From IMG/VR virus record IMGVR_UViG_3300025853_000040, positions 1 through 64,000 of that record: a stretch of DNA of 64,000 bases; one strand, 5' to 3'. Below are positions 6,905 through 64,000 of the stretch, piece after piece. A model generated the notes under the pieces. The model worked only from the letters and a program-made list of their open reading frames with translations, searched no databases and was not told the origin of the DNA. The first letter of the stretch is position 1; every line of letters starts with the position of its first letter. A program made the translations under genes and the position numbers. Source of the stretch: a virus.

Positions 6905-7897
6905 TTATATTTCAATATATTCTGTTTTTAATGTAGCGAAAGAAGAAACCCAGTTATCAATATTATTAGGTGAAATTCCTTCGGATAGTAATTTAATTCT
7001 AAAATTAGGTGGATTAAACTTTAATTGTGTTTTACCAACAATATTAAAGATTGTGCTTACAGAAGTTGTTGATATATTAGGATCTAACAACTGAACTAAA
7101 CTATAATTATTTTCTATTAAGTTCTTATTATCAATATATTTCTGATATCTTTTTTGTTTGTTTGATACTTGTTCAATGGAATATTCTTGTATATCGTCTA
7201 TTGTATATTCTGTTGTGTTTGATAGAAATGGAAAATCTTTCTTTACTGTTTTCTCACCAACGCCCTTAACACCTTCAATATTATCTGAATTATCACCACA
7301 TAATGATTTTATCAATGTGTAATTAGGTGGATAACACTCTTCTATATCACTCATCCACTCAGTGTTAATAAACTGGCCTATGGGGTCTTTCTTGGTTTTA
7401 ATGGGTCTGAATACTGTAGTTGTGTCATCAACCAATTGAAAATAATCCTTATCACTAGAAACTATTATCTTTTCGTAATCATCTTTTAACACTTTTTTGC
7501 AAAGGTATGCAATAACATCATCGGCCTCTAAATACTTTACACCTAATTGCAAAACAGGTAAATCATTAAGACACTCCTTAAGTAATAGTAACTGACGCGC
7601 GAATGATTGTGTTTCATCTTCATCAGAAGAATCAAAATGACGGCGATTCAAACCCTTAAAAGATCTACCCTCTTTATATGAGGATAATGTCTTTCTTCTT
7701 CTCTCTGATGAACCCTGACCTTCCCACGCAATGATAGTATAATCGGGTTGGTGTAACTCTATTTGACTCCTAATAGAAGCCAGACTTCCATATAACCCAG
7801 AAACTAATTCACCATTATCGTTTGACATAGCAAATGCAGAAAAGTTTCTGACATACATATTCAACATATCAACTATTAAAACTTTATTTTTTCTCAT
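6905..7897 (-). CDS. 5'-3' exonuclease / flap endonuclease (T4 RNase H-like)
   Basis: Removes RNA primers and 5' flaps on the lagging strand. The product (330 residues) contains the FEN/PIN acidic centres: LIVDMLNMYVRN at the N-terminus, YLEADDVIAYL, VSSDKDYFQL, and SLCGDNSDNIEGVKGVGEKT, the last being the helix-hairpin-helix DNA-binding region. The start is set at the ATG at 7897 because it overlaps the TGA of the upstream deaminase as ATGA; a GTG six codons earlier is less likely. It lies directly before the helicase gene. Related to T4 RNase H and the N-terminal domain of Pol I. Confidence 0.9.
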   Translation of the reverse strand: MRKNKVLIVDMLNMYVRNFSAFAMSNDNGELVSGLYGSLASIRSQIELHQPDYTIIAWEGQGSSERRRKTLSSYKEGRSFKGLNRRHFDSSDEDETQSFARQLLLLKECLNDLPVLQLGVKYLEADDVIAYLCKKVLKDDYEKIIVSSDKDYFQLVDDTTTVFRPIKTKKDPIGQFINTEWMSDIEECYPPNYTLIKSLCGDNSDNIEGVKGVGEKTVKKDFPFLSNTTEYTIDDIQEYSIEQVSNKQKRYQKYIDNKNLIENNYSLVQLLDPNISTTSVSTIFNIVGKTQLKFNPPNFRIKLLSEGISPNNIDNWVSSFATLKTEYIEI

Positions 7898-8319
7898 ATT
7901 ATGTGACACTCCCACCCGGTTGGGGTTGTAAAATAAACTTTTTTAACACCAGCTTCTCTAATAATGTTCATACAATAAGAACAAGGCTTAGCTGGCTTTA
8001 ACATACCATGTCTATCTTCTCTATAAACATACATCTTACTACCTTTTATACAATCATCATATCTATATGAATTTACTGAAAGTATTGCTTGAAGTTCGGC
8101 GTGTATTGATACAGCGTAGAACGGATAATGTTTTTTGAGTGCAGGGTGGGTTTTCATATCCTTATTGTGAGACTTATAAACCTTGCCGTTCTTTAACACT
8201 AACACCGCGCCAAACCTCGTTTTATGGTCTGACTTGAACATTTCTGAACAAGCCATTCTGAAAAACTTCTTCTTCTTTATCTCTTTTTTTACGAGTGAGT
8301 TACTCGGCTCATACTCCAT
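7894..8319 (-). CDS. second cytidine/deoxycytidylate deaminase-family protein
   Basis: A 141-residue member of the CMP/dCMP deaminase fold with its zinc ligands intact: HAELQAIL (His and catalytic Glu) and PCSYC. The N-terminal DHKTRFGAVLVLKNGKVYKSHNKD segment corresponds to the family's TxxGAVIV region. It is clearly diverged from the enzyme at 1481-1918: the substrate loop differs and the C-terminus (TTPTGWECHII) is distinct. It may act on another cytosine-containing substrate. It has its own candidate promoter at 8343-8370 and overlaps the exonuclease gene by 4 bases. Confidence 0.78.
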   Translation of the reverse strand: MEYEPSNSLVKKEIKKKKFFRMACSEMFKSDHKTRFGAVLVLKNGKVYKSHNKDMKTHPALKKHYPFYAVSIHAELQAILSVNSYRYDDCIKGSKMYVYREDRHGMLKPAKPCSYCMNIIREAGVKKVYFTTPTGWECHII

Positions 8320-12224: not shown

Positions 12225-12932
12225 TTATAAACTCCTTATTTGTTTTATTAAATTGCCCTCAAATATATTATTAGACATAAGTCTTTTTTTCTTTACATAA
12301 ATATCATGTTCATGCATTATACTGTTTGAATGTGTCCACCTATATCTTGGATGATTATCTCTTTTTAAGATATACCAACTATTATATAAGTTGTTTTCAT
12401 ACATCATACATAAAAACCATTCTTCTAATATATCAAAACTCTCCATATTTGTCAAGTGTAAATTTTCTATTCTTTCAGGCAATATTTCTTGGCGTATATA
12501 TTTTGGTATATGTGATGTTTTAAAAACGCATATATCCGTTAGTGGATGGCCATATTCTATGTTACGACCTAGACCTATATGTTTGTCTTTTTGTATACCC
12601 TCAAATATGCCTAAAAAATTATTTTGATCTAAAATCCAAACATCAAAATTCATTATTAAAGTATATTTTCTATTTACTAGTTTAGCAACTTCAAAAGATT
12701 TATTGTATAAATCTAAAGCCCCTAATTGATAACCTCTGTTTTCATTTAATGTTATAAAGTTATTTTCTCTTGCTCCACTACATAATTCATTTAAATCACC
12801 ATTATATATGCAACTAATCCATATATCATTACCAAACTCATAGTTATCTCTTATAATCTCCATATTAGCATAAAAATTATAAACTTCGTTATTACCTATA
12901 AGTATAACATGTATATCTTTTGGGTTAATCAT
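12225..12932 (-). CDS. probable glycosyltransferase, GT-A-like
   Basis: A 235-residue product with a GT-A-type layout: an N-terminal strand HVILIGNNE, then ITLNENRGYQLGALDLYN, like the NxGxxxGxN region of GT2-type enzymes, then LIMNFDVWIL in the position of the DxD nucleotide-sugar motif (here DVW). The C-terminal half lacks familiar motifs. It overlaps the next glycosyltransferase gene by 4 bases and belongs to a run of five sugar genes. The donor and acceptor cannot be predicted. The missing canonical DxD keeps this tentative. Confidence 0.55.
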   Translation of the reverse strand: MINPKDIHVILIGNNEVYNFYANMEIIRDNYEFGNDIWISCIYNGDLNELCSGARENNFITLNENRGYQLGALDLYNKSFEVAKLVNRKYTLIMNFDVWILDQNNFLGIFEGIQKDKHIGLGRNIEYGHPLTDICVFKTSHIPKYIRQEILPERIENLHLTNMESFDILEEWFLCMMYENNLYNSWYILKRDNHPRYRWTHSNSIMHEHDIYVKKKRLMSNNIFEGNLIKQIRSL

Positions 12933-13978
12933 AATGAATTATATATCTCAATATACTTTCTATATATCATTTCTGGATTATAATCTTCTTCATATCTTTG
13001 TCTTGCATTTTTTGATAACTTTTCATAATCATATTTTTTATCTACAAAATTTTTCATTATACGAGCATACTCTTTAATATCATTATGTAACACAGTAAAA
13101 CCTGCGTTTTGTATATTTTCTATTTGACCATTAAAACGATCACCGTAATGACTTATTACAGGTTTACTGTGTGAAAACGATTCGGCTATGTTTGTAGGAC
13201 AACACTCGCCGTCTTTCCTCGCATGAGCAAGAACATCAATAGTGTTATAAAACTTAGATATATAAATATAATCAATATTTTGTGGAATGTCAACAAAATT
13301 CTTTATATTAAATTGCTTAATATCCTGCAGCATTTTTTGAGAAGAATTAACAGAAATAAAGCAAGTTTTATCTGTTTCTATCATAGAATAGGCTTTTATA
13401 TTAATAGGATCATATATATTATCATCAGACCTTCCTATTCTACCAAAAACATATATATCATCTTCTATACCTAATTCTTTTCTTAAGTTTTTATTTTGAG
13501 GTTTATCAATAACAGGAACTCTTACAGTGTAGTGATTTTTTTCTTTTTGTTTACCCATAAAAAATTGAACATGCAAAGAAACATATATAACCGCTGATAT
13601 ATCTATTGTTTCGTCTTGATCACCAAACGTAGATAATGATACAAAATGATTTGTATGTTCTTTTACTTGTTCTACAAAAGGAAACTCTGGTATTCCTGCG
13701 GAATATCTTTGTATGATGTGAGGTTTTAAATGTTTAACTATTTCTAAAAAATCATGTTCAGTGTTATAGGGAAGCATCCTTTCTTCACCTATAACACTTA
13801 TAAAATCACTTTCTCTAGATATATCTATCCATTTTTTATAAGAAACATAATGTTTATATTTTTTATCTTTTAAAAAATAAGGTAATAAAGTTTGTATTAT
13901 TTTTGTTGTTCCACCAACAGACAACTCATTGATATGGTGTATAACTACATTATTATTTCTTATTTTTGTTGTAAACAT
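12929..13978 (-). CDS. glycosyltransferase, GT-B fold, GT1/GT4-like
   Basis: A 349-residue GT-B glycosyltransferase. The N-terminal domain has a glycine-containing loop after the first strand (HHINELSVGGTTKIIQTLLPYF), and the C-terminal Rossmann domain ends with the family's donor-binding region: NIAESFSHSKPVISH, then an LHNDIKEYARIM helix. The IDVLAHARKDGE segment matches the GT4 position preceding the E(x7)E motif. It probably transfers a sugar from a nucleotide donor. It overlaps the neighbouring genes by 1 and 4 bases. Confidence 0.72.
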   Translation of the reverse strand: MFTTKIRNNNVVIHHINELSVGGTTKIIQTLLPYFLKDKKYKHYVSYKKWIDISRESDFISVIGEERMLPYNTEHDFLEIVKHLKPHIIQRYSAGIPEFPFVEQVKEHTNHFVSLSTFGDQDETIDISAVIYVSLHVQFFMGKQKEKNHYTVRVPVIDKPQNKNLRKELGIEDDIYVFGRIGRSDDNIYDPINIKAYSMIETDKTCFISVNSSQKMLQDIKQFNIKNFVDIPQNIDYIYISKFYNTIDVLAHARKDGECCPTNIAESFSHSKPVISHYGDRFNGQIENIQNAGFTVLHNDIKEYARIMKNFVDKKYDYEKLSKNARQRYEEDYNPEMIYRKYIEIYNSL

Positions 13979-15558
13979 TAATGTTTATACTCACCATATT
14001 CAATAAGTTGATTAACTTGTGTGTCATATGTTTTATAATGCAAACAATGAACACCATCAACTACTTTTTCTTTATTAGCGTTATTTATTTTTATATGTAT
14101 CTTGTTACTATATCTACAATTGTTCTTATAAACTCTTTGTTGAACATCTGGATAATTAATCCAATTAAATGGTTTTGATAAAACCCAATTTTGTCTTTTT
14201 GCAAAATCTTCTAGCTTATCTTCATCAACACCAGTTATAACATTAATTCTTGGAAATATAATAGAGTCAAAATTATTTTTATCAGCATCTCTTATATACC
14301 AACCTAACTGATTCCAGAATATATCTTCATAAGTTTCATCAGTATCAATCCAAACAACCCAATCATTATTTGTTTTTTCTAAGGCTATATTTTTCTGAAC
14401 ACTGTGATTATTTGGCCATGGGTTTTCTATTATATGTGCGTTTCCTTCTTTTATATTCAATGATTGAATAAATGTTTTTGTTATATCAATTGTTTTATCT
14501 GTAGATCCACCATCAACGAAAACAAACTCATTATTTTCATTTGAAGATATATATGATCCTATATTATTAAAAGTTTTCTGAATGTGATTTTCATTATTCA
14601 TACCTATCATACACACAGAAAAATTATAATTAGGAGATTTTTTATTTTCTATTATATATTTTATTTTATCAAAAACACCAGATGCATTTACAGCTTCTTT
14701 ATATACTTTTTGATCATAGTATTCTACTTCTTCATAATCAGAATTTGTTTCAATATAACAAGTGTTCCAAAAATCTGATAGCCCTTTTGGTATATGATTC
14801 TGAATAAAGAAATGATTCTTCGTATAAAAACAAAATGTTGGTATACCAGCTCTTGATGTTATTTCCCAATCCCAACTATTACAGAATATACCTGCATCAA
14901 CTGTTTGTAGAAAATATATTGTATCTTCTACACCCATTCTCTTATCTAAGACGCTGTATCCGTCTGTTATTAGCTCTTCTATTAACCCCCAATCCTCATC
15001 TCCATAACCAACGAAGGCAGGTGTATATCCATTATCACACAACTTTATACACAAATTCTTCCACTCATCTCTACTCCAAAACCTACCTTTCTCAACATCA
15101 CTTTCAAACCCCTCTATGTTGCCAGATTTTGTTAGGGGGTGAATAGCTACTGTATTTTTTGGTGTAAAATTTATTTCTGTATTATATGGATGTTTTGTTG
15201 TTTTATAATGATAAGGAAATTGCAAATCATATTTATAAAAAACAGGTTCTTTATTACTAAAAATCTCAGAACAAAAACTCCAATCTTCTAATATGTCGTT
15301 TTCTTCAAAAACATTTTCTTTTATAAAATCATATGTAGATCTGATTTGATTATGAAATGAAAAGTTCTTAACAACAGAAGCTTTATAACCTTCTCTTTCT
15401 ATTTGTTGTTTTGAAAACTCAACTGATTGGCCGATGCCACCTAACCAAAATTGTATTTCATGTTCTGGGTATTTTTCTTTTACTGCGGGAATTCTTGTTA
15501 ATGCTGAAAGTGTGTCTCCAAAACCAGCTAATTGCAATATATGAAACTTTTTACTCAT
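13978..15558 (-). CDS. two-domain glycosyltransferase: GT9-like plus GT2
   Basis: A 526-residue fusion. Residues 1 to about 300 resemble a GT9 heptosyltransferase-like GT-B fold: FHILQLAGFGDTLSALTRIPAVKEKYP at the N-terminus, VAIHPLTKSGN at the start of the second domain, and DAGIFCNSWDWEITSRAGIP where GT9 enzymes have the GxDxGxxH region. Residues about 305-526 are a GT2 domain: SVCMIGMNNENHI, FVFVDGGSTDKT, and WVVWIDTDE carrying the DxD metal site. It overlaps the HldE-like nucleotidyltransferase gene by 8 bases. A bifunctional transferase acting on a heptose-containing acceptor is inferred. Confidence 0.75.
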   Translation of the reverse strand: MSKKFHILQLAGFGDTLSALTRIPAVKEKYPEHEIQFWLGGIGQSVEFSKQQIEREGYKASVVKNFSFHNQIRSTYDFIKENVFEENDILEDWSFCSEIFSNKEPVFYKYDLQFPYHYKTTKHPYNTEINFTPKNTVAIHPLTKSGNIEGFESDVEKGRFWSRDEWKNLCIKLCDNGYTPAFVGYGDEDWGLIEELITDGYSVLDKRMGVEDTIYFLQTVDAGIFCNSWDWEITSRAGIPTFCFYTKNHFFIQNHIPKGLSDFWNTCYIETNSDYEEVEYYDQKVYKEAVNASGVFDKIKYIIENKKSPNYNFSVCMIGMNNENHIQKTFNNIGSYISSNENNEFVFVDGGSTDKTIDITKTFIQSLNIKEGNAHIIENPWPNNHSVQKNIALEKTNNDWVVWIDTDETYEDIFWNQLGWYIRDADKNNFDSIIFPRINVITGVDEDKLEDFAKRQNWVLSKPFNWINYPDVQQRVYKNNCRYSNKIHIKINNANKEKVVDGVHCLHYKTYDTQVNQLIEYGEYKH

Positions 15559-15997
15559 CTTTAACCATCTTTTTCAATAAATTAGTTGTAGAATATTCTC
15601 CAAACATAGGAGCCTTAATAACTTTACCTCCGTATGATTCAACAAATGATTTACCTACTATAAAATCTGTTGAACCACCTTTTATGAGAATACTAGGTCT
15701 TAACCATTTAATAGTTTCTAAAACACTAGTATTCTCAATCGGTATAATATAATCAATTTCTTTAGAAAAATAAACTAAATTTTCTACTCTTTTATTAAAA
15801 GTATCAACAGGTCTATTATTTCCTTTTAACTTCTTAACTGATTTATCTGTGTTAACACCAACAACTAATTTATTACTTGGTAATTTAAAAGATAATGCAT
15901 AGTTTATTAAAAATTCATGCCCTTTATGAAATAAATCAAAACAACCATTAGTAAAAATAACTTCTTCAATAAAATATTTAGGTTTATATATGAGCAT
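15551..15997 (-). CDS. HldE C-terminal-like nucleotidyltransferase (heptose-phosphate adenylyltransferase type)
   Basis: A 148-residue cytidylyltransferase-fold enzyme. FTNGCFDLFHKGHEFLINYA carries the HxGH active-site motif near residues 16-35. VGVNTDKSVKKLKGNNRPV matches the second conserved block, and DYIIPIENTSVLETIKWLRPSILIKGG the HldE/RfaE2-type third block. In bacteria this domain adds AMP to heptose-1-phosphate to make ADP-heptose. Length fits the stand-alone domain (about 150). Its expected partner, a PfkB-type HldE1 kinase, is at 59216-60004. The neighbours are GT9-like transferases, which use ADP-heptose. GmhA, GmhB and HldD are not visible here. Confidence 0.8.
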   Translation of the reverse strand: MLIYKPKYFIEEVIFTNGCFDLFHKGHEFLINYALSFKLPSNKLVVGVNTDKSVKKLKGNNRPVDTFNKRVENLVYFSKEIDYIIPIENTSVLETIKWLRPSILIKGGSTDFIVGKSFVESYGGKVIKAPMFGEYSTTNLLKKMVKDE

Positions 15998-15998
15998 A

Positions 15999-16565
15999 TT
16001 ATATTTTTATATCTTCTAAATCTCCAATTTGATAACGCAAACCACCATATTTATCATCACCTATAAAAACACCATCATCTATAATAACCATCTTATTTAT
16101 TCCTACAGGTTCTGGAATAAATGTATCATATTGATCGGTTCTCATATTATAAGATATGCCAGATTTTTTAATCATCAATATATAAGAGCCACTTTGAAAA
16201 AGTATATTACCCTCTATAGAATAAACATTTCTACTAGAACTCTTTGGCTCACTTTTGAACCAAATATCTAATGAGTTTGTTTTAATCATTCTATCCATTT
16301 TAAACTGAAGATGGTAGAATGGGTCGTCACTTTTTTCAAAATGATAAATTTCCATATATTGTATTTCACCATCTGTAACATTAAAACTTCTTTCTAAATA
16401 TGCATATTTTTCATCTAATGCATCAACCATCATTAATGCGTAATTATCATAGCTATATACATACTCCCTACTATCACTAGATGTAGGGTTGTCTGAACAA
16501 CTGACTAAAATCGCAACACTTGAAAAGAATATAACCTTTGATAATAAGTTTTTTATTCTTTTCAT
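15999..16565 (-). CDS. predicted lipoprotein, 188 residues
   Basis: A signal peptide (MKRIKNLLSKVIFFSSVAIL) is followed by a lipobox ending at Cys23 (LVSC), then a Ser/Asp/Asn-rich linker (SDNPTSSDS), the standard form of a bacterial lipoprotein. The mature part is a beta-rich domain without recognised family. It would be lipid-anchored to the host inner or outer membrane. Phage-encoded lipoproteins often block superinfection or receptors, so that is the leading guess. Its position among sugar genes would fit a cell-surface-directed module. Confidence 0.72.
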   Translation of the reverse strand: MKRIKNLLSKVIFFSSVAILVSCSDNPTSSDSREYVYSYDNYALMMVDALDEKYAYLERSFNVTDGEIQYMEIYHFEKSDDPFYHLQFKMDRMIKTNSLDIWFKSEPKSSSRNVYSIEGNILFQSGSYILMIKKSGISYNMRTDQYDTFIPEPVGINKMVIIDDGVFIGDDKYGGLRYQIGDLEDIKI

Positions 16566-16574
16566 CTTATCTCT

Positions 16575-16751
16575 CTACATGGTTTTTGCCGCCTCTACGC
16601 TTTCTTTTCTGTAGTCGGTAGCTAATTTCTTTATTTCGCCGATGGCCTTCCTCGCTCTAGTTCCTGCTGACTTATTATTGCTTTCTACAAACTTCTTATG
16701 ATTCATTACAAAATCTTCATAAAGGGCAATTATCTTACTATAAGTTTCCAT
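16575..16751 (-). CDS. histone H1-like protein, Hc1 family
   Basis: A 58-residue basic helical protein. The C-terminal part, SAGTRARKAIGEIKKLATDYRKESVEAAKTM read in segments, follows the Hc1 pattern (xxAGTRVRK...L...YRKES..A) known from chlamydial histone-like Hc1 and related bacterial proteins. It probably binds and condenses DNA. The start is set at the ATG at 16751, six bases after GGAG; an ATG four codons earlier overlaps that site. The 3' half of the gene is richer in G/C than its neighbours, hinting at acquisition from elsewhere. Confidence 0.7.
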   Translation of the reverse strand: METYSKIIALYEDFVMNHKKFVESNNKSAGTRARKAIGEIKKLATDYRKESVEAAKTM

Positions 16752-16795
16752 ATTATTCTCCATTAATATTTTATATTATAAATATCTTCTATTAT

Positions 16796-17233
16796 TTATT
16801 TAAAGATAGATTCGTGTGAACTTCTGGCTGCTTTTTCAATATATTGATCTATTCTATCAATACAATCATTTCTTAACTTATTATACTCAGAAACCTTATC
16901 AGCGGCCTCTAATCTTTCATTATCAGTTAAACTCTTATCTCTTCTAATATCCTCTAAATCCCATAACTTATTATTATACTCATTTAGAAGACTAATAACT
17001 GATAAAAAACTTACTTCATTTTGTATTGATACTTCTTTATCATAAACCTTATGTTTTTCAAATGTAAATGGCCGACGACCACTAAAACACTCAGTAAGTT
17101 GATCACCAATACTTTTGAATAACCACCCATACTGATTGTATAGGTGGTAATATCCTTCATCTTTTTTTCTTAACTCTTGAATTCTTCTTTCTAAAATTGT
17201 TATTTTATCTATTATACTACCAAAAGTCTCCAT
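16796..17233 (-). CDS. DUF4254/DUF6165-like helical protein
   Basis: A 145-residue all-helical product. The segments IIDKITILERRI near the N-terminus, NNKLWDLEDIRRD in the middle, and EYNKLRNDCIDRID near the C-terminus resemble the uncharacterised families (DUF4254/DUF6165 type) that are found next to GT9 heptosyltransferases in LPS gene clusters. Here too a GT9-containing gene follows immediately (no gap, 17234-19654). Function is unknown. A helper or regulatory role in glycan assembly is suggested by context only. Confidence 0.55.
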   Translation of the reverse strand: METFGSIIDKITILERRIQELRKKDEGYYHLYNQYGWLFKSIGDQLTECFSGRRPFTFEKHKVYDKEVSIQNEVSFLSVISLLNEYNNKLWDLEDIRRDKSLTDNERLEAADKVSEYNKLRNDCIDRIDQYIEKAARSSHESIFK

Positions 17234-19654
17234 TTAATTTTTCCTTTGACAAAACAAAAACTTAGCATCAGTAGCTTCATGCGTAAAATATTGCTCAACT
17301 ATTTTAAACCCATTATCATCTAACATAGATTCAAATGTTTTATAATCAAAAAATGATATTTTTTCACCAACACCCATATCTCTCCAATCTCTTGGGTTAT
17401 CTCTAAATGAGTCATTATCTATATCATAAAAACTTATATATAGATAACCACCAGATTCAGAAACATCGTAACACTTAGATAAAAATTCTCTTGGGTTGCT
17501 AACATTATTAATAATATCATGACACAATAATGTTTGAAACTTTCTATCAAAATCATAAGTAACAAAATTACCAGATATTAATTTATCTTTTAAATCAGAA
17601 TATATATTAATACCATTTGTAATAGAGTCTATGTTTAAATCAATACCCATAATATCATCCGTATACTTAGAATATCCATCTAAAAATATTCCCATATTAC
17701 ACCCAATATCTAATAAAGAATTATTAGTTATTGATTTCTCTGTCATATGATTAATTATTGGAACAAAGTTCTTTTCCCACACTGTTTCTTTTTTATCTAT
17801 ATAAAACTGAGATGTATTAAGTCTTTGATCTGGGTGATGATGCACATCTTCTTTCCAATATATACCAGTAACATCATCTCTATAATATGCAAAACCCTCA
17901 ATCAAATCTTTGCTGATGAGATTTCCTATGATATTAAAAGCATAAGTCATCTCATTTCCATCTGGTGATGTCTTTTTATCTGTTAAAGATGATACTGCTT
18001 TTTTAACCATACTTGGTTTAATATCATTAATACCACAACTTGGATCTTTAACATTAATAGGTATAAATGTTAAACCACCTTTTTCTGTTAAATCTATAAA
18101 CTTAGAGTGCTTTAATCCTAAACAATCATTACCATGATTTTCAAGATAATAAACATTTTCATTATTGGGATTAGTTAATCTTGGCAAAGCAGCTCCTGCA
18201 ATAATCACACACTTCTTATTGAAAGATCTTGCAATATGCATGGGACCATTGTCTGCTCCGATATACAAATCACAATTTTTAATCAAATTAATTAAAGTTT
18301 TAAAATCACAATTGTGATATGTTGGATCTGTATCATTTGTGACATGATGGCTTCCAGTTTCTATAACATTATATCCTTCATTTTTATAATGAAGAATAAT
18401 GTTCTCATAATAACTTAATGGCCAAGTTTTTCCGGGCCAACCAGATCCATCACCACAAACAACAATATATTTTTCTTCTATAATACGATCTTCATCACAC
18501 ACTAATTGTGGATACTTATCTCTTCTATCTTCAAAGAATACATTTGCAACTTCAGCATAAGAGTCAATAAAAGGTCTCTTAACTCTGCTCTCATATGATA
18601 AATCCAAATCAATACCCATTTCATATTCTGTTTTAGATAAAAAGTCTTCGTGAAGATTGACTTCCTCCAACTCCTTTATATGATCTGGTGCGTGCTTGAA
18701 GTAATTTGGTATATCTGTTGATTTGGTAAAAAGTGTTATTTCAGCTTTAGGATGATCCTGTCTCAACTTCTTAATGATTGGCTCAATTAATATAACATCA
18801 CCCAACCCTATTGTTCTCTTAATAGCTATTGAGTTTATATCACCCATATTCTTTGACATAGCAACAGTGTGCTTATTATGATTTGCAAATCTATAGTTAC
18901 CAACTAAAGTTGGAAGTTTTCTTTTTATCTCTATCTCACCAGTCTCTTCATTGATAGAATGTTTGTTATCTATAGGGGCAGGTGCGCCAATCTGTGCCTC
19001 AATATAATTTATAGTTTCCTTATAACCACCATCTCTTTCAATCCACTGAATAACACTTATTTCTGTGGATACAGTTCCTCTTAATTTTTCATAAGACCAC
19101 TGATTAACTATTTTACCCGCAGAAAAATCATGTTCGCCATTTGAATCTTCAGTGATACATAACGCCCAATCTGCTGGTATGCCTTTGCGGTGAGAAACTT
19201 CATCAATTATAATTGTTGTTAAGTTAGGTGGGTTTTCTATCCTATAGTCAAAAGTATTAGCTTTACCCTCTGGCTTATTAATGTCTTTGCTTTCTAAATT
19301 TGAAAGACACCAATTAACATTTGAATCATCGTATTTTTCAATATGACTATCAATATGTCTTGGATACCACTTAACATTATTAATAGTTCTATAAAAAATA
19401 ATATCACCTACAGCTAATTCCAAAGCTTCATTTATAAATGTTGGAATAGGTTTATGATTAATCCATTGCACATTTAAAAACAAACTATTGACTATTTTTT
19501 TAACTTCTTCTGAATTTTCTTCCTTAAATGATGAAACAATCAAATCAACATTCTTATATGTTTGTTCAGATATATTTTTTACTGCCTCTACTATTTGATC
19601 GTCATCAGAATTTTCTACAAACAATAAAACACTAACCATTTTGTTTTCTGACAT
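17234..19654 (-). CDS. three-domain sugar enzyme: GT2-like, GT9-like, SAM methyltransferase
   Basis: An 806-residue fusion. The N-terminus (about residues 5-110) has the GT2 opening MVSVLLFVEN and ISEQTYKNVDLIVSS, but no DxD where expected (FYRTINNVKW), so it may be inactive. Residues about 280-550 are a GT9 heptosyltransferase-like domain: RTIGLGDVILIEPIIKKLRQ, then VVCGDGSGWPGKTWP, and the signature IGADNGPMHIARS. Residues about 640-806 are a class I methyltransferase with SLLDIGCNMGIFLDG (SAM loop) and GIDLN. It starts six bases after GAGGT. A combined glycosyl- and methyl-transfer is likely. Confidence 0.8.
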   Translation of the reverse strand: MSENKMVSVLLFVENSDDDQIVEAVKNISEQTYKNVDLIVSSFKEENSEEVKKIVNSLFLNVQWINHKPIPTFINEALELAVGDIIFYRTINNVKWYPRHIDSHIEKYDDSNVNWCLSNLESKDINKPEGKANTFDYRIENPPNLTTIIIDEVSHRKGIPADWALCITEDSNGEHDFSAGKIVNQWSYEKLRGTVSTEISVIQWIERDGGYKETINYIEAQIGAPAPIDNKHSINEETGEIEIKRKLPTLVGNYRFANHNKHTVAMSKNMGDINSIAIKRTIGLGDVILIEPIIKKLRQDHPKAEITLFTKSTDIPNYFKHAPDHIKELEEVNLHEDFLSKTEYEMGIDLDLSYESRVKRPFIDSYAEVANVFFEDRRDKYPQLVCDEDRIIEEKYIVVCGDGSGWPGKTWPLSYYENIILHYKNEGYNVIETGSHHVTNDTDPTYHNCDFKTLINLIKNCDLYIGADNGPMHIARSFNKKCVIIAGAALPRLTNPNNENVYYLENHGNDCLGLKHSKFIDLTEKGGLTFIPINVKDPSCGINDIKPSMVKKAVSSLTDKKTSPDGNEMTYAFNIIGNLISKDLIEGFAYYRDDVTGIYWKEDVHHHPDQRLNTSQFYIDKKETVWEKNFVPIINHMTEKSITNNSLLDIGCNMGIFLDGYSKYTDDIMGIDLNIDSITNGINIYSDLKDKLISGNFVTYDFDRKFQTLLCHDIINNVSNPREFLSKCYDVSESGGYLYISFYDIDNDSFRDNPRDWRDMGVGEKISFFDYKTFESMLDDNGFKIVEQYFTHEATDAKFLFCQRKN

Positions 19655-31289: not shown

Positions 31290-31314
31290 AATGCTTATAA
31301 TAAATATAAGTATT
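31290..31314 (-). terminator. AT-rich hairpin terminator after the methyltransferase-like gene
   Basis: On the minus strand AATACTTATA pairs with TATAAGCATT (ten pairs, one of them G-T) around a five-base loop, followed by GTTTTTATT. The hairpin begins at the stop codon of the 31313-31960 gene. It contains few G/C pairs, so it is probably weak. No clear promoter is visible in 31233-31289. Confidence 0.4.
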
Positions 31315-31960
31315 ATTCACTATTTGTTTTCTTACTTCTGCTTCTTCTTCTTCTTTTTGGTTTTACTTTTTCTTCCTCTACAACCACTTCTTCCTCTACT
31401 TCTTCTACAGCCGCATACTCTGGAACTGCTTCTTCTATATTAACAACTGGTTCCTCTATCGCTGGTTCTGGTTGTGGTTCTGGTTGTGGTTCTGGTTGTA
31501 TAACCATACTTTCTTTTCTTTTTTGAGATATCAATGATTCTGTATTGATATGAATAATAGAGTCACCATCAACATATATAACATCACATATAATGTTTGA
31601 TTTTACTATTTCGTCTAAAACTCTTGGAGGATAAGAAAAACTATTATCTATAAAAACAATATCTGTGTTTATGGTTTTTATATATTCATTTATTGTTTTT
31701 CTATCTAGTAAAACAGGTTTAACCATAGAAAAATTGTTTTTATCTAATACTTTTCTTATATGAGCTGTCGTCTTATAATCACTTAATGAAACAGGAATTA
31801 TATTACTTAGTGGAAAAGTTTTTGATAATTCCAATGTTAAATAACCAGAATGACAACCCAACTCAGTAATAGAGTTTTTATTTAAAGAATTAATTTTTTC
31901 TGTAACTAATTGTAATGTTGCAAAACTAAATTGTCTAAAACTTGTTTCATACTTAAACAT
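31313..31960 (-). CDS. methyltransferase-like protein with long acidic/basic tail
   Basis: 215 residues. The first 130 residues look like a small Rossmann methyltransferase: SITELGCHSGYLTLELSK resembles the SAM-binding GxGxG loop (here GCHSG), followed by IIPVSLSDYKTTAHI, TDIVFIDNSFSY and IICDVIYVDGD. The rest is low-complexity: a QPEP repeat, a Glu/Val-rich acidic run, then KPKRRRRSRSKK, a strongly basic end. It lies inside the tail gene cluster. The enzyme may be degenerate, and the tail suggests binding to DNA or a polyanion. Confidence 0.5.
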   Translation of the reverse strand: MFKYETSFRQFSFATLQLVTEKINSLNKNSITELGCHSGYLTLELSKTFPLSNIIPVSLSDYKTTAHIRKVLDKNNFSMVKPVLLDRKTINEYIKTINTDIVFIDNSFSYPPRVLDEIVKSNIICDVIYVDGDSIIHINTESLISQKRKESMVIQPEPQPEPQPEPAIEEPVVNIEEAVPEYAAVEEVEEEVVVEEEKVKPKRRRRSRSKKTNSE

Positions 31961-58863: not shown

Positions 58864-59160
58864 TTACAAACTTTCATCACCCTCTTCAGAATCACCATCT
58901 GTAGTGTCAATAGTCTGAACATCTTGCATTTCTAATGGCTCTTGACCACTTTGTTGTTCTTGTGCATCCAACTCTTCCAAGTTAACACCAGATTCTTCTA
59001 ATAGAGCGTTTAACTGTAATAGTGCTCCTTGATTTAGAATGAGTGACTGTTGAAGATTATTAGCTCTTGTTTGGGCTTCGTTCAATTGTTCTTGAATCTC
59101 ACCTACTGCTTGCATCTGCCCTCGACGCTTTTCAATAATTCCATCTACACTTAATGACAT
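58864..59160 (-). CDS. coiled-coil protein with acidic tail, 98 residues
   Basis: Residues about 10-60 form a heptad-patterned helix (VDGIIEKRRGQMQAVGEIQEQLNEAQTRANNLQQSLILNQGALLQLNALLEESG), and the end is strongly acidic (DGDSEEGDESL). No family is recognised. It lies directly upstream of the sheath gene but is separated by a promoter and leader. Suggested roles are a tail assembly helper or a DNA-mimic-like regulator. An AAAGGAG site precedes the ATG. Confidence 0.6.
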   Translation of the reverse strand: MSLSVDGIIEKRRGQMQAVGEIQEQLNEAQTRANNLQQSLILNQGALLQLNALLEESGVNLEELDAQEQQSGQEPLEMQDVQTIDTTDGDSEEGDESL

Positions 59161-59215: not shown

Positions 59216-60004
59216 CTAATTTAAACTTAATGTTCCAAGTTTCTTACAATTCTCAGCAGCATAATTATCTGCTTCTTTTAATGAATCATATATGTTTTTT
59301 TCACATACAATATTATATATAAATGATGCAAAGAAAGAGTCACCCGCACCAATACTATCTATAAAATCATATTTTGTATGACCACCGCCGTTTTGTAAAA
59401 TATGGCTATATCCATAATATTTGTATCCTTCAATACCTAATGTAACAATTACATTAGGAAAATATTTGCTAATATCATCTCTATAATCTTTTTCATATTC
59501 TAAAAATGTTTTATTATTTATTTTTAGATAATCAGCGCCATAATATTCACTATTTACTATATTTGTATCTATAAAAGAAGTTATGTTTTTATTTTTAGCT
59601 TCTTTTATTAGTAAGTTTATTTCATAATCTGTTATTAATCCTTTATGATAGTTTGATATTACAAGGAAATCACCTTCATTTAAATCATTTATTAAATTTT
59701 GAACCATTCCTTTGTTATGTTTTACACTATCTCCATGATCAAACCTATATATGGGGTTATGGTCTATATAAAATCTCTCTTTAATTATTTTATCTTCATT
59801 TGTATAAAAAGCTATTTCATGGTATTTGTTTTCTTTAAAGAGAAAATTTAGATGTTTAATCAAATTAGCGGCACCGCCATCAGTGTCAACTTTTTCTTTA
59901 TTAGATAAAATAACTGGAACTTTTGTTGCAGGATCTATTCTATTAGAATGCATAAAAACATATCTATCTATAAATGACTCACCTATTACGTGTAATTTCT
60001 TCAT
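59216..60004 (-). CDS. PfkB-family sugar kinase, HldE N-terminal (RfaE1)-like
   Basis: 262 residues. The N-terminus HVIGESFIDRYVFMHSNRIDPATKVPVI followed by VDTDGGAANLIKHLNF is close to the HldE heptose-7-phosphate kinase opening (DRY...R(I)xPxxxVPV...GGAAN). The catalytic loop DSIGAGDSFFASF carries the Asp general base of the PfkB family. In bacteria the kinase makes heptose-1,7-bisphosphate on the way to ADP-heptose. It is the counterpart of the nucleotidyltransferase at 15551-15997. It is shorter than typical HldE1 (about 320), so a different sugar is possible. It overlaps the DHS-like gene by 26 bases. Confidence 0.78.
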   Translation of the reverse strand: MKKLHVIGESFIDRYVFMHSNRIDPATKVPVILSNKEKVDTDGGAANLIKHLNFLFKENKYHEIAFYTNEDKIIKERFYIDHNPIYRFDHGDSVKHNKGMVQNLINDLNEGDFLVISNYHKGLITDYEINLLIKEAKNKNITSFIDTNIVNSEYYGADYLKINNKTFLEYEKDYRDDISKYFPNVIVTLGIEGYKYYGYSHILQNGGGHTKYDFIDSIGAGDSFFASFIYNIVCEKNIYDSLKEADNYAAENCKKLGTLSLN

Positions 60005-60773
60005 ACATCCTCTGATATATATTTCTGTTATCTATTCTAAGATATTCAATATTTTCTGATATTCTACCAAAAGTTTTTAATTGACGTTCATAATAACCAG
60101 CCTTAGATGTGTCTTTGTTAACATACTCTGATCCATCAACTGATTCTAAATCAAACAAATCACAAACTAAACTATCAAAAACACATTCACTATCACGTTT
60201 TTTTGCAACAGAAAACGCCTTTTCAATAACCATAGGAACAAAGACTTTACTTCCAACACAAACAAACAAACCTCTTTTTGTATTTTCTACTAACTTACAA
60301 AGTCTTAAAAAATCATTATAAGAAGCTTTTGCCCACTGTGCGGGATCAAAGTTTCCATACATTTGAAATATATCATGACCTATACCAATAGATACAATAG
60401 GTTGCACTTGATTCTGATGGGCTTGCCAAAATACTGATTTATCTCTATGATTACCTTGCCAACCAATGAAGTTAGAAATCAACTTACCTAATGAATCAGT
60501 TCTTGTAAGGCTGATAAAGTTGTTTATATCACCACATACTCTTCTATTCCAACCAAACTTACCCTCTTTGATTGTAGTTTCAACATCCTCACTGGTATCG
60601 TCATACAAAGCAATCTCTGTATCATGTAAGATAGAAGCTCCATTAGTTACAAATGCATCTATCTTACCAGTTTCAAATAATGGTTTTAGCTGTTCAACAC
60701 ATCTATTCTTTATTGTGTGTGCGCCGAAACCAAGTATTATTGTATCATATTGATCAATATTGTTTAGTAACAT
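59979..60773 (-). CDS. deoxyhypusine-synthase-like protein
   Basis: 264 residues. ILGFGAHTIKNRCVEQLKPLFETGKIDAFVTNGASILHDTEIAL followed by DDTSEDVETTIKEGKFG is the DHS-family N-terminal core, and SIGIGHDIFQMYGNFDPAQW, then GLFVCVGSKVFVPMVIEKAF, its C-terminal NAD-binding half. True DHS needs a Lys in a GGGxPKH-like motif, which I do not see. Bacterial relatives of unknown function exist. The start is the ATG at 60773 with GGAAGG six bases upstream; a TTG start at 60800 is unlikely. It overlaps the carbamoyltransferase by 20 bases and the kinase by 26. Confidence 0.68.
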   Translation of the reverse strand: MLLNNIDQYDTIILGFGAHTIKNRCVEQLKPLFETGKIDAFVTNGASILHDTEIALYDDTSEDVETTIKEGKFGWNRRVCGDINNFISLTRTDSLGKLISNFIGWQGNHRDKSVFWQAHQNQVQPIVSIGIGHDIFQMYGNFDPAQWAKASYNDFLRLCKLVENTKRGLFVCVGSKVFVPMVIEKAFSVAKKRDSECVFDSLVCDLFDLESVDGSEYVNKDTSKAGYYERQLKTFGRISENIEYLRIDNRNIYQRMYEEITRNR

Positions 60774-62580
60774 AAAAACCTTCCATAACAAGAGTGTCAA
60801 TTTCTGTTTTTATAAAGCATTTCATTGCATCTTCTGGAGTTTCTACAATGGGTTCTCCCTTATCATTAAATGATGTATTTATGATTACAGGAACACCAGT
60901 TAATTCATCAAACTTTTTTATGATATCATATATTCTTCCATTATCCTCTGAAATCGTCTGTAATCGTCCAGAATCGTCTATATGAACACCAGAGGGAATA
61001 TCACTACCCCTAATTGATTTGTGACTAAATAACATGAATGGTGACTCATATCCTTCTTCTACATCAAACCACTCATGAGCTTTCTCTTTTAATACCATAG
61101 GAGCAAAAGGTCTAAACTCTTCTCTGTGTTTTACATTCTTATTTAGTTTATCTTTCATATCTTTGTTGCGTGCATCTGCTAGTATACTTCTATTACCTAA
61201 GGCTCTTGGGCCTATTTCAGATCCGCCTTCAAAATAAGCTACAATCTTTCCTTCAGATATATCTTTTGTTATTTTATTAATAATATCATCATTTGATAAT
61301 TTTTCATAATTTAATTTAGGTTTATTTATATTTAAATATTCCTTTATTGTTGATTGTATTTCTTGATCGTCATAAATCTTACCGCCAGTAAAAGTATCAG
61401 ATATTGTATACCCTACTTTTTTCTTATTTGTCATTTCTATACTCATCTCACCTTTTTTATTTTTGCGAATTTGTTCCGCAATAAAAATGGATGCACCTAT
61501 TGATAATCCATCATCTCCCGGTGCTGGTGGTATGAAGAAATTATAATCTGGAAAAGCTTTTTGTAATTTCCCATTAGCAACACAATTCAAAACAGTTCCA
61601 CCAGATAAACATATATTTTTTGTATTTTTTACATTAGACAAAATTTCTTTTATCATATTAATCATTGAAGCTTCTAATATATGTTGTGTGTCTGCCGCAA
61701 TGTTTTTATTTATTTTTATTTTCCAATCTTTTTTATCTAACCAAGATATATCTTCAACCCCACCTTCTCCTTTAAGTTGTGGGTAAAAAACTCTTCGTTC
61801 TGGTATATTCGGCATACCATGTCTATACAATAATGAATTATATTGATCTCCATGAAATAATTGACCTATTCTTTTTACAGTTGGCCACTCTAATCCATTA
61901 ACTATATTTTCATTTACTTTACCGTATGCTGACAAAGCCATTACTTTGCCAGCATCAGTAAGAGATGGGAAAAAACCTAAGTAATCACACATAGAACCAT
62001 AAAAGCTACCTATATCAAAATCACCCCCTCTACGGATTGGACGATAAAACTTTAAATCGTCATTAAAATAATATACTGAGTGTGATGTTCCCATATTATC
62101 TGCAAAATCAACAGATAAACAAATTGCATCTCTAAAAGGAGACAAGTAATACGATGTTGCACAATGTGAAAAATGATGATCAACAAAGAAAACAGGAATG
62201 TTTTGTTCACCTATTTGCATTTCATAAACACCTTGTGCAACCATATTAGTGTTTTGATGAAAGTTAAACCAATCTTCTTGTGTGTATTCAACTCCATTAG
62301 CATCAACAATAGAAAAATCTTCTTTTGTTTTATCCCAAAGTTCTGTTCCTTCTAAATCTTTATCCCAAAACCAATTCGTTATAACTGCACAATCAACATC
62401 TTTTAATTTAATTCCTTCTTTATCCAAAATGTATTTAATTGTTTTTTTATTTATCCCTCGTTCCTTCTTGTTTCTAGTTAATCTTTCAGTTGCAATATAA
62501 CCAACCATCTTTCTATTTTTAACAAGAGAAACACTGCCATCATGGCCACAATTTAAACCTAATACATAAGAATTTTTCAT
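60754..62580 (-). CDS. carbamoyltransferase, NodU/TobZ family
   Basis: 608 residues, the normal family length. Uses carbamoyl phosphate and ATP to place a carbamoyl group on a sugar hydroxyl. The Kae1-like N-terminal domain shows GLNCGHDGSVSLV, VDHHFSHCATSYY (HHxxH metal site), SVDFADN, CLSGGTVLNCVAN and PPAPGDDGLSIGA. The YrdC-like C-terminal domain shows YFEGGSEIGPRALGNRSILADAR and HREEFRPFAPMVL. It lies in an overlapping cassette with a GT9-like enzyme and an HldE-like kinase. The acceptor is probably the sugar these enzymes make. Confidence 0.9.
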   Translation of the reverse strand: MKNSYVLGLNCGHDGSVSLVKNRKMVGYIATERLTRNKKERGINKKTIKYILDKEGIKLKDVDCAVITNWFWDKDLEGTELWDKTKEDFSIVDANGVEYTQEDWFNFHQNTNMVAQGVYEMQIGEQNIPVFFVDHHFSHCATSYYLSPFRDAICLSVDFADNMGTSHSVYYFNDDLKFYRPIRRGGDFDIGSFYGSMCDYLGFFPSLTDAGKVMALSAYGKVNENIVNGLEWPTVKRIGQLFHGDQYNSLLYRHGMPNIPERRVFYPQLKGEGGVEDISWLDKKDWKIKINKNIAADTQHILEASMINMIKEILSNVKNTKNICLSGGTVLNCVANGKLQKAFPDYNFFIPPAPGDDGLSIGASIFIAEQIRKNKKGEMSIEMTNKKKVGYTISDTFTGGKIYDDQEIQSTIKEYLNINKPKLNYEKLSNDDIINKITKDISEGKIVAYFEGGSEIGPRALGNRSILADARNKDMKDKLNKNVKHREEFRPFAPMVLKEKAHEWFDVEEGYESPFMLFSHKSIRGSDIPSGVHIDDSGRLQTISEDNGRIYDIIKKFDELTGVPVIINTSFNDKGEPIVETPEDAMKCFIKTEIDTLVMEGFYVTKQY

Positions 62581-63743
62581 TATAACATCACCGTATTTTC
62601 TTTTTTATCTTTTTTAATTATATCCTCTAAATTATTCATCTCTTTAATAACTTGCTGAACTGTTATTGATTTCATACAGCTGTAAGAAGGGCAAACCCAT
62701 AGTTTTCCATTTCTATCTTGATCAAACATATTTGGTCTCCAACAACCTAAATCATCTTGATCACATGAGTTTTTATTCCATATATTAATATTATGTTTCC
62801 AACCCCAAACATAAGGTGAAACACTACCCCATAAAACAACACCTCTTCTTTTTATAGAGGGAAATAATGCAGCTGCTAAATGTGGTAGATAGTTATCAAT
62901 ACTTAAAAACATTCTACACTTTTGAGATTGTAATATTTGTAATACTGGATTTAAATTATCTACTTTTAATGATGTTATACCGGGTATCTCTGGATTATAT
63001 TCGTTTGCAAAAACTTGAACAAAAGAATATCTATCTTTTAATTTTGCAGCTAACTCACCCCATTGCTGAAGTGACCATACTTTATGTGTTCTGTAGTTTA
63101 TACCAGACATTAATTCATGTGGGTTTCTATCAACTCCTAAATGAACTAATACTATAGGTTTTTTATTTTGATTAATAAAACTATTAACTTTATTATTACT
63201 TCCACTAATCTTAAGCATAGGGTGGCCACCATCATATTCCAGTGGACTAGCCATAGATTTAGAGTATAGATTACATATAAATGATTTAGGATCATCCTTA
63301 TATCTGTGCTGAGTGATTAGTTTGGTTAAACTAAAGCCATATTCTATAGAATAAACTCTATCTATATTGTTTTTTATAAGTTTAGGTATTATATTTTCAT
63401 CACGATTAAAAAATTGATTTTGTGCACGCCAACTATCTAAATATATACCATGTTCAAAACCATTTTCTATAGGTATAACACCCGGATCATGTGGCCATTG
63501 ATTGGGAGATTCTGGAACTTGAACTCCATATACGTTCTGCCCAGACATTGCAGAAGAAACCATATGACCTATTATACTATTATCTATTACTAGTATAGGA
63601 TATGTATTTCTTTCTTGTTTTCTTATTCTTATAAGAGATCTTATAAAGCATGTTTGTATTATTCTAGCTCCCATACCTCCAGCTAGTATTAATATATATA
63701 CTTTATCTTTTTCAGTTATTTGTATTTGTTTATTCTGGTTCAT
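62580..63743 (-). CDS. GT9-like glycosyltransferase (heptosyltransferase type)
   Basis: 387 residues. The N-terminus VYILILAGGMGARIIQTCFIRSLIR is a GT9-like first strand and loop. The C-terminal GT-B domain reads IVLVHLGVDRNPH, WSLQQWGELAAKLKDRYSF, KCRMFLSIDNYLPHLAAALF (where GT9 has GxDxGxxH/PxHL) and RRGVVLWGSVSPYVWGW. A C-terminal Cys-rich segment (SCDQDDLGCWRPNMFDQ, VCPSYSCM) may bind metal. It overlaps the carbamoyltransferase start by one base (TAATG). The 63744-63844 gap upstream is AT-rich, with no clear promoter. Confidence 0.72.
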   Translation of the reverse strand: MNQNKQIQITEKDKVYILILAGGMGARIIQTCFIRSLIRIRKQERNTYPILVIDNSIIGHMVSSAMSGQNVYGVQVPESPNQWPHDPGVIPIENGFEHGIYLDSWRAQNQFFNRDENIIPKLIKNNIDRVYSIEYGFSLTKLITQHRYKDDPKSFICNLYSKSMASPLEYDGGHPMLKISGSNNKVNSFINQNKKPIVLVHLGVDRNPHELMSGINYRTHKVWSLQQWGELAAKLKDRYSFVQVFANEYNPEIPGITSLKVDNLNPVLQILQSQKCRMFLSIDNYLPHLAAALFPSIKRRGVVLWGSVSPYVWGWKHNINIWNKNSCDQDDLGCWRPNMFDQDRNGKLWVCPSYSCMKSITVQQVIKEMNNLEDIIKKDKKENTVML

Positions 63744-63844: not shown

Positions 63845-64000
63845 TTATGTCCAAGAATTAGCCTCATATGTAAGACTTGCATGGATTGTAGCTGGAACAG
63901 AAGAAATATCTGCAGGAGCTAGTTCTGTGTCAAAATTACTGCTATCAGTCCATCTATACAAACCAGCTTCTGTTGTATTTGGCCCTATGTTTAGAGTAAT
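63845..64000 (-). CDS. C-terminal 51 residues of an unidentified protein, cut by window edge
   Basis: The frame is open from 64000 to a TAA at 63845-63847. The visible end reads ITLNIGPNTTEAGLYRWTD... and finishes LTYEANSWT. Thr/Ser/Asn-rich beta sequence of this kind is typical of phage structural proteins, but no family can be assigned from the fragment. Confidence 0.6.
   Translation of the reverse strand: MTLNIGPNTTEAGLYRWTDSSNFDTELAPADISSVPATIHASLTYEANSWT

Follow-up and report, generated by a model that had tools for sequence, protein, structure and literature searches.

A conserved four-gene cassette beside the tail genes of a T4-like aquatic phage is probably part of a carbamoylated-heptose pathway and encodes a protein distantly related to the GSU2086 family

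A four-gene cassette in the tail-gene block

The window analyzed here (bases 1–64,000 of the 109,190-base IMG/VR virus record IMGVR_UViG_3300025853_000040, which is classed as a possible fragment) comes from a T4-like aquatic phage. Near its end lie four genes encoding a glycosyltransferase family 9 (GT9)-like protein, a carbamoyltransferase, a protein resembling deoxyhypusine synthase (DHS), and a PfkB-family kinase (Table 1). Neighboring open reading frames (ORFs) of this cassette overlap by 1, 20, and 26 bases, and their coordinates bear out the overlaps given in a preliminary description of the sequence. A TTG at position 60800 is an alternative start of the DHS-like ORF. In the direction of transcription, a tail-fiber-like ORF of 1,895 amino acids (69532..63845 of the full record) precedes the cassette, and a 98-residue ORF, the tail sheath gene, and a tail-tube-like ORF follow it. 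The preliminary description placed the four genes just upstream of the sheath; the position is right, but the 98-residue ORF intervenes. This ORF has a counterpart in the related record L008 and a similar ORF in L108, and is probably a neighbor outside the sugar pathway. The location of the cassette inside the tail-gene block suggests late expression. Among the phage records, Microcystis phage Mel-JY01 has the closest sheath (32.7%); it has no cassette of this kind at the equivalent sheath-side place.

The cassette is real and conserved. All four genes are present in L008 and L009 in the same order and place, with 64–86% identity, and the ratios of nonsynonymous to synonymous substitution rates (dN/dS) are 0.14 for the GT9-like gene, 0.22 for the carbamoyltransferase, 0.16 for the DHS-like gene, and 0.28 for the kinase; the shared order and the constraint argue that the assembly is not due to chance. 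Fragments of the same virus, or of a near-identical one, are represented by records L011 and L105. The IMG/VR fragments L108 and L109 (23 and 53 kb) share with the window the order of tail fibers, GT9-like gene, carbamoyltransferase (54% identity), kinase, and sheath, but differ in having, between the carbamoyltransferase and the kinase, a second carbamoyltransferase in two ORFs and a 107-residue ORF. The second carbamoyltransferase of L108 (L108:9939-11634) consists of an N-terminal ORF of 382 residues and a C-terminal ORF of 187 residues.

Four other IMG/VR records (L006, L007, L010, and L021), whose kinship to the phage is evident from gp32 and replication genes, encode the same DHS-like protein at 70–80% identity. 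Unlike in the window, the gene stands there in another sugar locus near gp32, and no carbamoyltransferase was found in these fragments. In L006, L007, and L021, it lies near genes for a GmhA-like isomerase and an HddA-like GHMP kinase. The DHS-like gene thus occurs in two sugar loci, and its heptose-kinase partners there are of two non-homologous kinds. The concern that the cassette genes might be scattered in relatives is therefore half justified: the order is kept in L008 and L009, whereas the DHS-like gene is placed elsewhere in these four records and is missing from the L108 and L109 fragments.

Table 1. Coordinates of the cassette genes and of associated genes in the window
Feature	Coordinates	Strand	Remarks
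GT9-like putative (heptosyl)transferase	62580..63743	-	387 aa; PF01075 E=0.013, below cut-off
NodU/TobZ-type O-carbamoyltransferase	60754..62580	-	608 aa; PF02543 and PF16861 above cut-off
DHS-fold protein (predicted fold), distant GSU2086-family relative	59979..60773	-	264 aa from ATG; NF052581 5.4e-45
PfkB-family kinase, HldE domain I-like	59216..60004	-	262 aa; PF00294 above cut-off
98-aa ORF between cassette and tail sheath	58864..59160	-	
HldE2-like nucleotidyltransferase	15551..15997	-	TIGR02199 1.8e-33; phrog_7878 1.4e-20
GT9 domain and methyltransferase protein, 806 aa	17234..19654	-	PF01075 48.1 bits, cut-off 22

Assignment of the cassette proteins

The DHS-like protein scored 15.8 bits against the DHS family PF01916 (cut-off 27, E=0.0085). 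It matched NF052581, the GSU2086 family, with 154 bits; since this is below the 250-bit cut-off, we regard the protein as a distant relative and not as a member. Bacterial members of both branches of the family reach 368–453 bits. An AlphaFold2 model had a mean predicted local distance difference test score (pLDDT) of 88.4 and a predicted template modeling score (pTM) of 0.88, and its top PDB matches in a Foldseek search were all deoxyhypusine synthases (E 2.5e-8, TM-score about 0.5–0.6). The modeled protein therefore appears to have a DHS-type fold, yet it is probably not a deoxyhypusine synthase. The DHS-like label of the preliminary description holds for the predicted fold, but family membership falls below the PF01916 threshold, and the better match is NF052581.

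The alignment of the protein family points in the same direction. The GG-x-P motif, invariant in six true DHS sequences, is absent from it, although 36 columns are invariant across 59 aligned sequences, five of them from phages. An invariant lysine, K233 (P-W-K-T in bacteria), may match the DHS catalytic lysine of W-x-K, in a region where the profile alignment with true DHS is unreliable, the reliable part being the N-terminal half. Within the family, the phage proteins group in a deep and supported clade, apart from true DHS. A profile search found the nearest solved sequences to be the C-terminal domains of the cyanobacterial proteins Sll1336 (ArgZ) and Alr4995 (AgrE) and one uncharacterized protein. 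A Foldseek search of viral structures gave no match at E 0.001, a tblastn search gave none in the phage records searched, and no paper tying a DHS-like protein to heptose synthesis was found in the open-access literature.

The NodU/TobZ-type assignment of the 608-residue protein proved solid. It matched the N- and C-terminal Carbam_trans domains over its full length (154.7 bits against a cut-off of 24, and 211.6 bits against 27) as well as phrog_1601 (3e-120), and it aligned over nearly its full length with PDB entry 7xb6 (1.3e-63), the PDB matches being of the TobZ/GdmN type. The protein is predicted to carbamoylate a sugar hydroxyl. The description of the kinase as PfkB/HldE1-like is equally solid: it exceeded the cut-off of PF00294 (42.9 against 25.8 bits), contains the GAGD catalytic motif (DSIGAGDSF), and matched phrog_8133, a cyanophage family (1.5e-29). 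Against TIGR02198 it obtained 80 bits (1.6e-22), far below the 345-bit equivalog cut-off, and for this reason we call it HldE1-like and not HldE. In a tree, it clusters with the kinases of L008 and L108; the ties to cyanophage and bacterial kinases are blurred by long branches, and we claim no origin. A kinase scan of viral contigs confirmed no relative.

The 387-residue protein is tentatively assigned to glycosyltransferase family 9. Its similarity to PF01075 (15.2 bits against a cut-off of 22) agrees with the earlier designation as a GT9-like transferase but is weak. It is conserved at 85–86% identity in L008 and 58–60% in L108, and it had no tblastn match in the phage records. The AlphaFold2 model was built from three sequences and is too poor for judging a GT-B fold.

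A second sugar locus of the window (12225-19654) holds the HldE2-like nucleotidyltransferase, the 806-residue protein with GT9 and methyltransferase domains, glycosyltransferases of families 2 and 1 (GT2 and GT1), and a DUF4254 gene; part of it is homologous to the locus that carries the DHS-like gene in L021. The cassette kinase is the likely partner of the HldE2-like nucleotidyltransferase, and the 806-residue protein is a possible user of nucleotide heptose.

Heptose genes around the bacterial relatives

Bacterial and archaeal genomes were scanned for relatives of the DHS-fold protein; 293 were found, and 80 bacterial loci among them were kept for the analysis of neighbors. Selected for their similarity to a single plasmid protein, these 80 represent only one branch of the family; loci of the second branch came from separate samples. 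Within 4 kb of the 80 loci, tblastn detected a PfkB kinase in 65, a nucleotidyltransferase in 51, an SIS isomerase in 40, and an HAD hydrolase in 13. The PfkB matches were confined to neighboring positions, none lying at least four genes away, so that the association with the kinase is local. The neighboring kinase is often a nucleotidyltransferase-PfkB fusion of approximately 510 residues.

In the second branch, a GmhA-type gene was adjacent in 20/20 loci inspected from a Desulfobacterota-group sample (the one checked matched TIGR00441 at 3.7e-57); where loci were read in detail, unrelated housekeeping genes surrounded the pair. In a Planctomycetota-group sample, the GSU2086-family gene was often found beside an HldE-type gene, one of which was checked and was a canonical HldE (8e-148); seven loci had no heptose neighbor. 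The phage gene has a context of the same kind, with the kinase adjacent in the window and HddA- and GmhA-like genes in L006, L007, and L021. The preliminary description had allowed that the DHS-like protein might pair with an unrelated pathway; this is not so, as its partners are heptose genes of the HldE, GmhA, and HddA types.

Functional data are available for the Geobacter sulfurreducens operon. In transposon sequencing (Tn-Seq) during growth on electrodes, the log2 ratios were -3.1 for hldE (GSU2085), -3.2 for GSU2086, and -3.7 for gmhA (GSU2087), and GSU2086 was described as a hypothetical protein of a sugar biosynthesis operon (PMC5585712).

The distribution of HldD (TIGR02197), the 6-epimerase of ADP-heptose, provided a further indication. 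Two phylum samples of 246 and 247 genomes were searched, and GSU2086-family profile matches were present in 111/246 and 144/247; these counts come from a stricter search, as weak partial matches of the phage profile may be true DHS. In the first sample, HldD was detected in 7/111 genomes with a GSU2086-family gene vs 57/135 without (Fisher p 3e-11), and in the second in 12/144 vs 43/103 (p 8e-10), a divergent HldD being able to escape detection by TIGR02197. When the first sample was restricted to genomes with a strong GmhA match, the table was 4, 61, 46, 31 (p 4e-12). This mutual exclusion at the level of gene content agrees with the DHS-fold enzyme taking the place of HldD but is no proof of it. 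Redox-neutral chemistry with NAD(P) (nicotinamide adenine dinucleotide or its phosphate) is established for both DHS and HldD-type epimerases, and an HldD-like role is therefore chemically reasonable.

A putative carbamoylated-heptose pathway and its alternatives

From the gene content and order, the constraint, the predicted fold, the neighborhoods, and the co-occurrence, we infer that the cassette probably carries out the last part of a heptose pathway assisted by the phage, comprising nucleotide heptose formation, glycosyl transfer, and O-carbamoylation; the substrates, the reaction of the DHS-fold protein, the order of the steps, and the acceptor given below are predictions. First, host GmhA would make heptose 7-phosphate. 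We presume that the host supplies the GmhA and phosphatase steps, because neither a GmhA nor an HAD_2 phosphatase was found in the incomplete record. Second, the cassette kinase would phosphorylate C1, and the HldE2-like enzyme of the phage (15551-15997) would make the nucleotide heptose. Third, the DHS-fold protein may carry out an NAD-dependent, redox-neutral step on a phosphorylated or nucleotide-activated C7 sugar, possibly the epimerization usually performed by HldD. Fourth, the GT9-like protein would move the heptose to an acceptor, for which a host surface glycan and a tail-fiber protein are about equally likely; the recurrent linkage to tail fibers, here and in cyanophages, fits both. 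Fifth, the NodU-type enzyme would use carbamoyl phosphate and ATP to carbamoylate the sugar, a modification known from the lipopolysaccharide (LPS) heptose of Pseudomonas. The suggestion that the cassette makes and attaches a carbamoylated sugar is thus still the best reading, narrowed here to a putative sugar of the heptose type.

The same enzymes may instead serve a different activated sugar, for example one made from a transketolase-extended ketose and modified by the DHS-fold enzyme, so that the homology to heptose enzymes would reflect ancestry only. Consistent with this, the phage kinase and GT9-like protein score far below the equivalog cut-offs, the kinase and SIS genes of first-branch bacteria also fall below those of HldE and GmhA, genes for transketolase halves and radical SAM proteins are frequent in the first-branch operons, and a transketolase gene adjoins the kinase in the clusters of cyanophages S-SM2 and P-TIM68. 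We nevertheless consider this alternative unlikely, in view of the pairing of the second bacterial branch with canonical GmhA and HldE, the Tn-Seq tie to annotated hldE and gmhA, and the HddA-like kinase in other phages.

A role of the DHS-like protein as a genuine deoxyhypusine or homospermidine-type synthase, placed by chance within an independent three-gene cassette for a carbamoyl sugar, is much less probable. The fold, the presence of the other three genes without the DHS-like gene in L108 and L109, and the location of that gene elsewhere in some phages would agree with such an arrangement. However, the protein misses the PF01916 cut-off and lacks the GG-x-PK motif, several bacterial genomes encode a separate true DHS besides the DHS-like gene, and the bacterial neighbors are heptose genes. 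Some phages glycosylate their DNA and deaminase-family genes are present in this one, but it is hardly tenable that the cassette makes a sugar that is placed on a modified base of the phage DNA and carbamoylated there, since the genes sit in the tail block, LPS-type clusters are the closest systems, and no hydroxymethylating enzyme was noticed among the annotated genes in a search that was not exhaustive.

Several observations weigh against the proposed heptose pathway itself. The L108 and L109 fragments carry the cassette without the DHS-fold gene, which is therefore not obligatory there. No carbamoyltransferase was found near any of the 80 bacterial loci, and neither GmhA nor the phosphatase was found in the 109-kb phage record. 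The GT9 membership of the putative transferase is weak. The three Geobacter genes form one operon, and polar effects in the Tn-Seq data are possible; the p-values of the HldD comparison treat related genomes as independent and are uncorrected for phylogeny. Finally, the phage DHS-fold protein has a low family score, is shorter than the bacterial members by approximately 55 N-terminal residues, and belongs to a deep separate clade; its reaction may therefore have changed.

A broader proposal is that the GSU2086 family consists of NAD-dependent nucleotide-heptose enzymes with a DHS fold that substitute for HldD, and that phages recruited a relative, together with HldE1- or HddA-type kinases, for a carbamoylated heptose on the virion or the host surface. 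Taken as a whole, this is possible but rather doubtful. If the DHS-fold enzyme does replace HldD, a second route of heptose biosynthesis would exist in large bacterial groups. The main value of the analysis lies in linking the GSU2086 family to heptose synthesis and in its mutual exclusion with HldD, which provide a functional hypothesis for a widespread uncharacterized family that is paired with GmhA or HldE and shares a biofilm-growth phenotype with hldE and gmhA. Some phages may carry several steps of the heptose pathway, with carbamoylation likely the last.

Other features of the phage

The tail-fiber-like ORFs at 63845-69532, 69839-75652, and 83871-84323 (full-record coordinates; the window ends at 64000) share a near-identical N-terminus, MAKYKNLIDIGNLNID, which suggests duplicated or exchangeable fiber modules. 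Two genes of the deoxycytidylate (dCMP)/cytidine deaminase family are located at 1481-1918 and 7894-8319. Although the tail genes of the phage are T4-like, the protein encoded at 3-1418 has an N-terminus that resembles, by eye, the PHP domain found in DNA polymerases of the DnaE type. A possible methyltransferase (weak NCBIfam matches, no Pfam match) is encoded at 31313-31960, within a block of baseplate-type genes.

Comparison with known systems

The operon hldE-GSU2086-gmhA of G. sulfurreducens (GSU2085-2087) resembles the cassette in that a DHS-fold protein stands beside an HldE-type kinase. The family members in such bacterial operons differ from the phage protein in being approximately 55 residues longer and above the family cut-off, and no gmhA was found in the phage record. 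For the final step, the closest functional analog is WapO of Pseudomonas, a putative carbamoyltransferase acting on the LPS-core heptose, whose carbamoyl group has been attributed to wapO (PMC8005017). The likeness is one of putative function; WapO, unlike the cassette enzyme, is a bacterial core-LPS enzyme.

The nearest phage counterparts are the cyanophage clusters T4-GC303-308, in which genes for a NodU-type carbamoyltransferase, an HldE1-like kinase (T4-GC305), and a nucleotidyltransferase (T4-GC304) are adjacent beside tail-fiber genes, as in P-SSM2 (PSSM2_307-313) and S-CAM1 (S170810_109-115). In these clusters, the gene immediately before the carbamoyltransferase is an ORF of 370–380 residues that looks like a GT9 protein on inspection by eye and is not detectably homologous to the glycosyltransferase of the window. 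The P-SSM2 protein PSSM2_311 (T4-GC306, L002:11312-11656), annotated as a phosphoheptose isomerase, starts with CIDIDGTICT, resembles a short HAD phosphatase, and matched no Pfam family at E 0.01, a possible misannotation. The window differs from the cyanophage clusters in that its nucleotidyltransferase gene lies in the second locus, approximately 43 kb away, making the arrangement related but not contiguous, and in that its cassette has no epimerase or cupin gene; no GSU2086-family gene was found in the cyanophage clusters. Such clusters were called LPS genes of unknown function in a comparison in 2010 (PMC3037559). The statement in the preliminary description that the combination is not a described phage pathway must accordingly be divided: the carbamoyltransferase-kinase core is of an already known cyanophage kind, and the DHS-fold member is the new part among the records searched.

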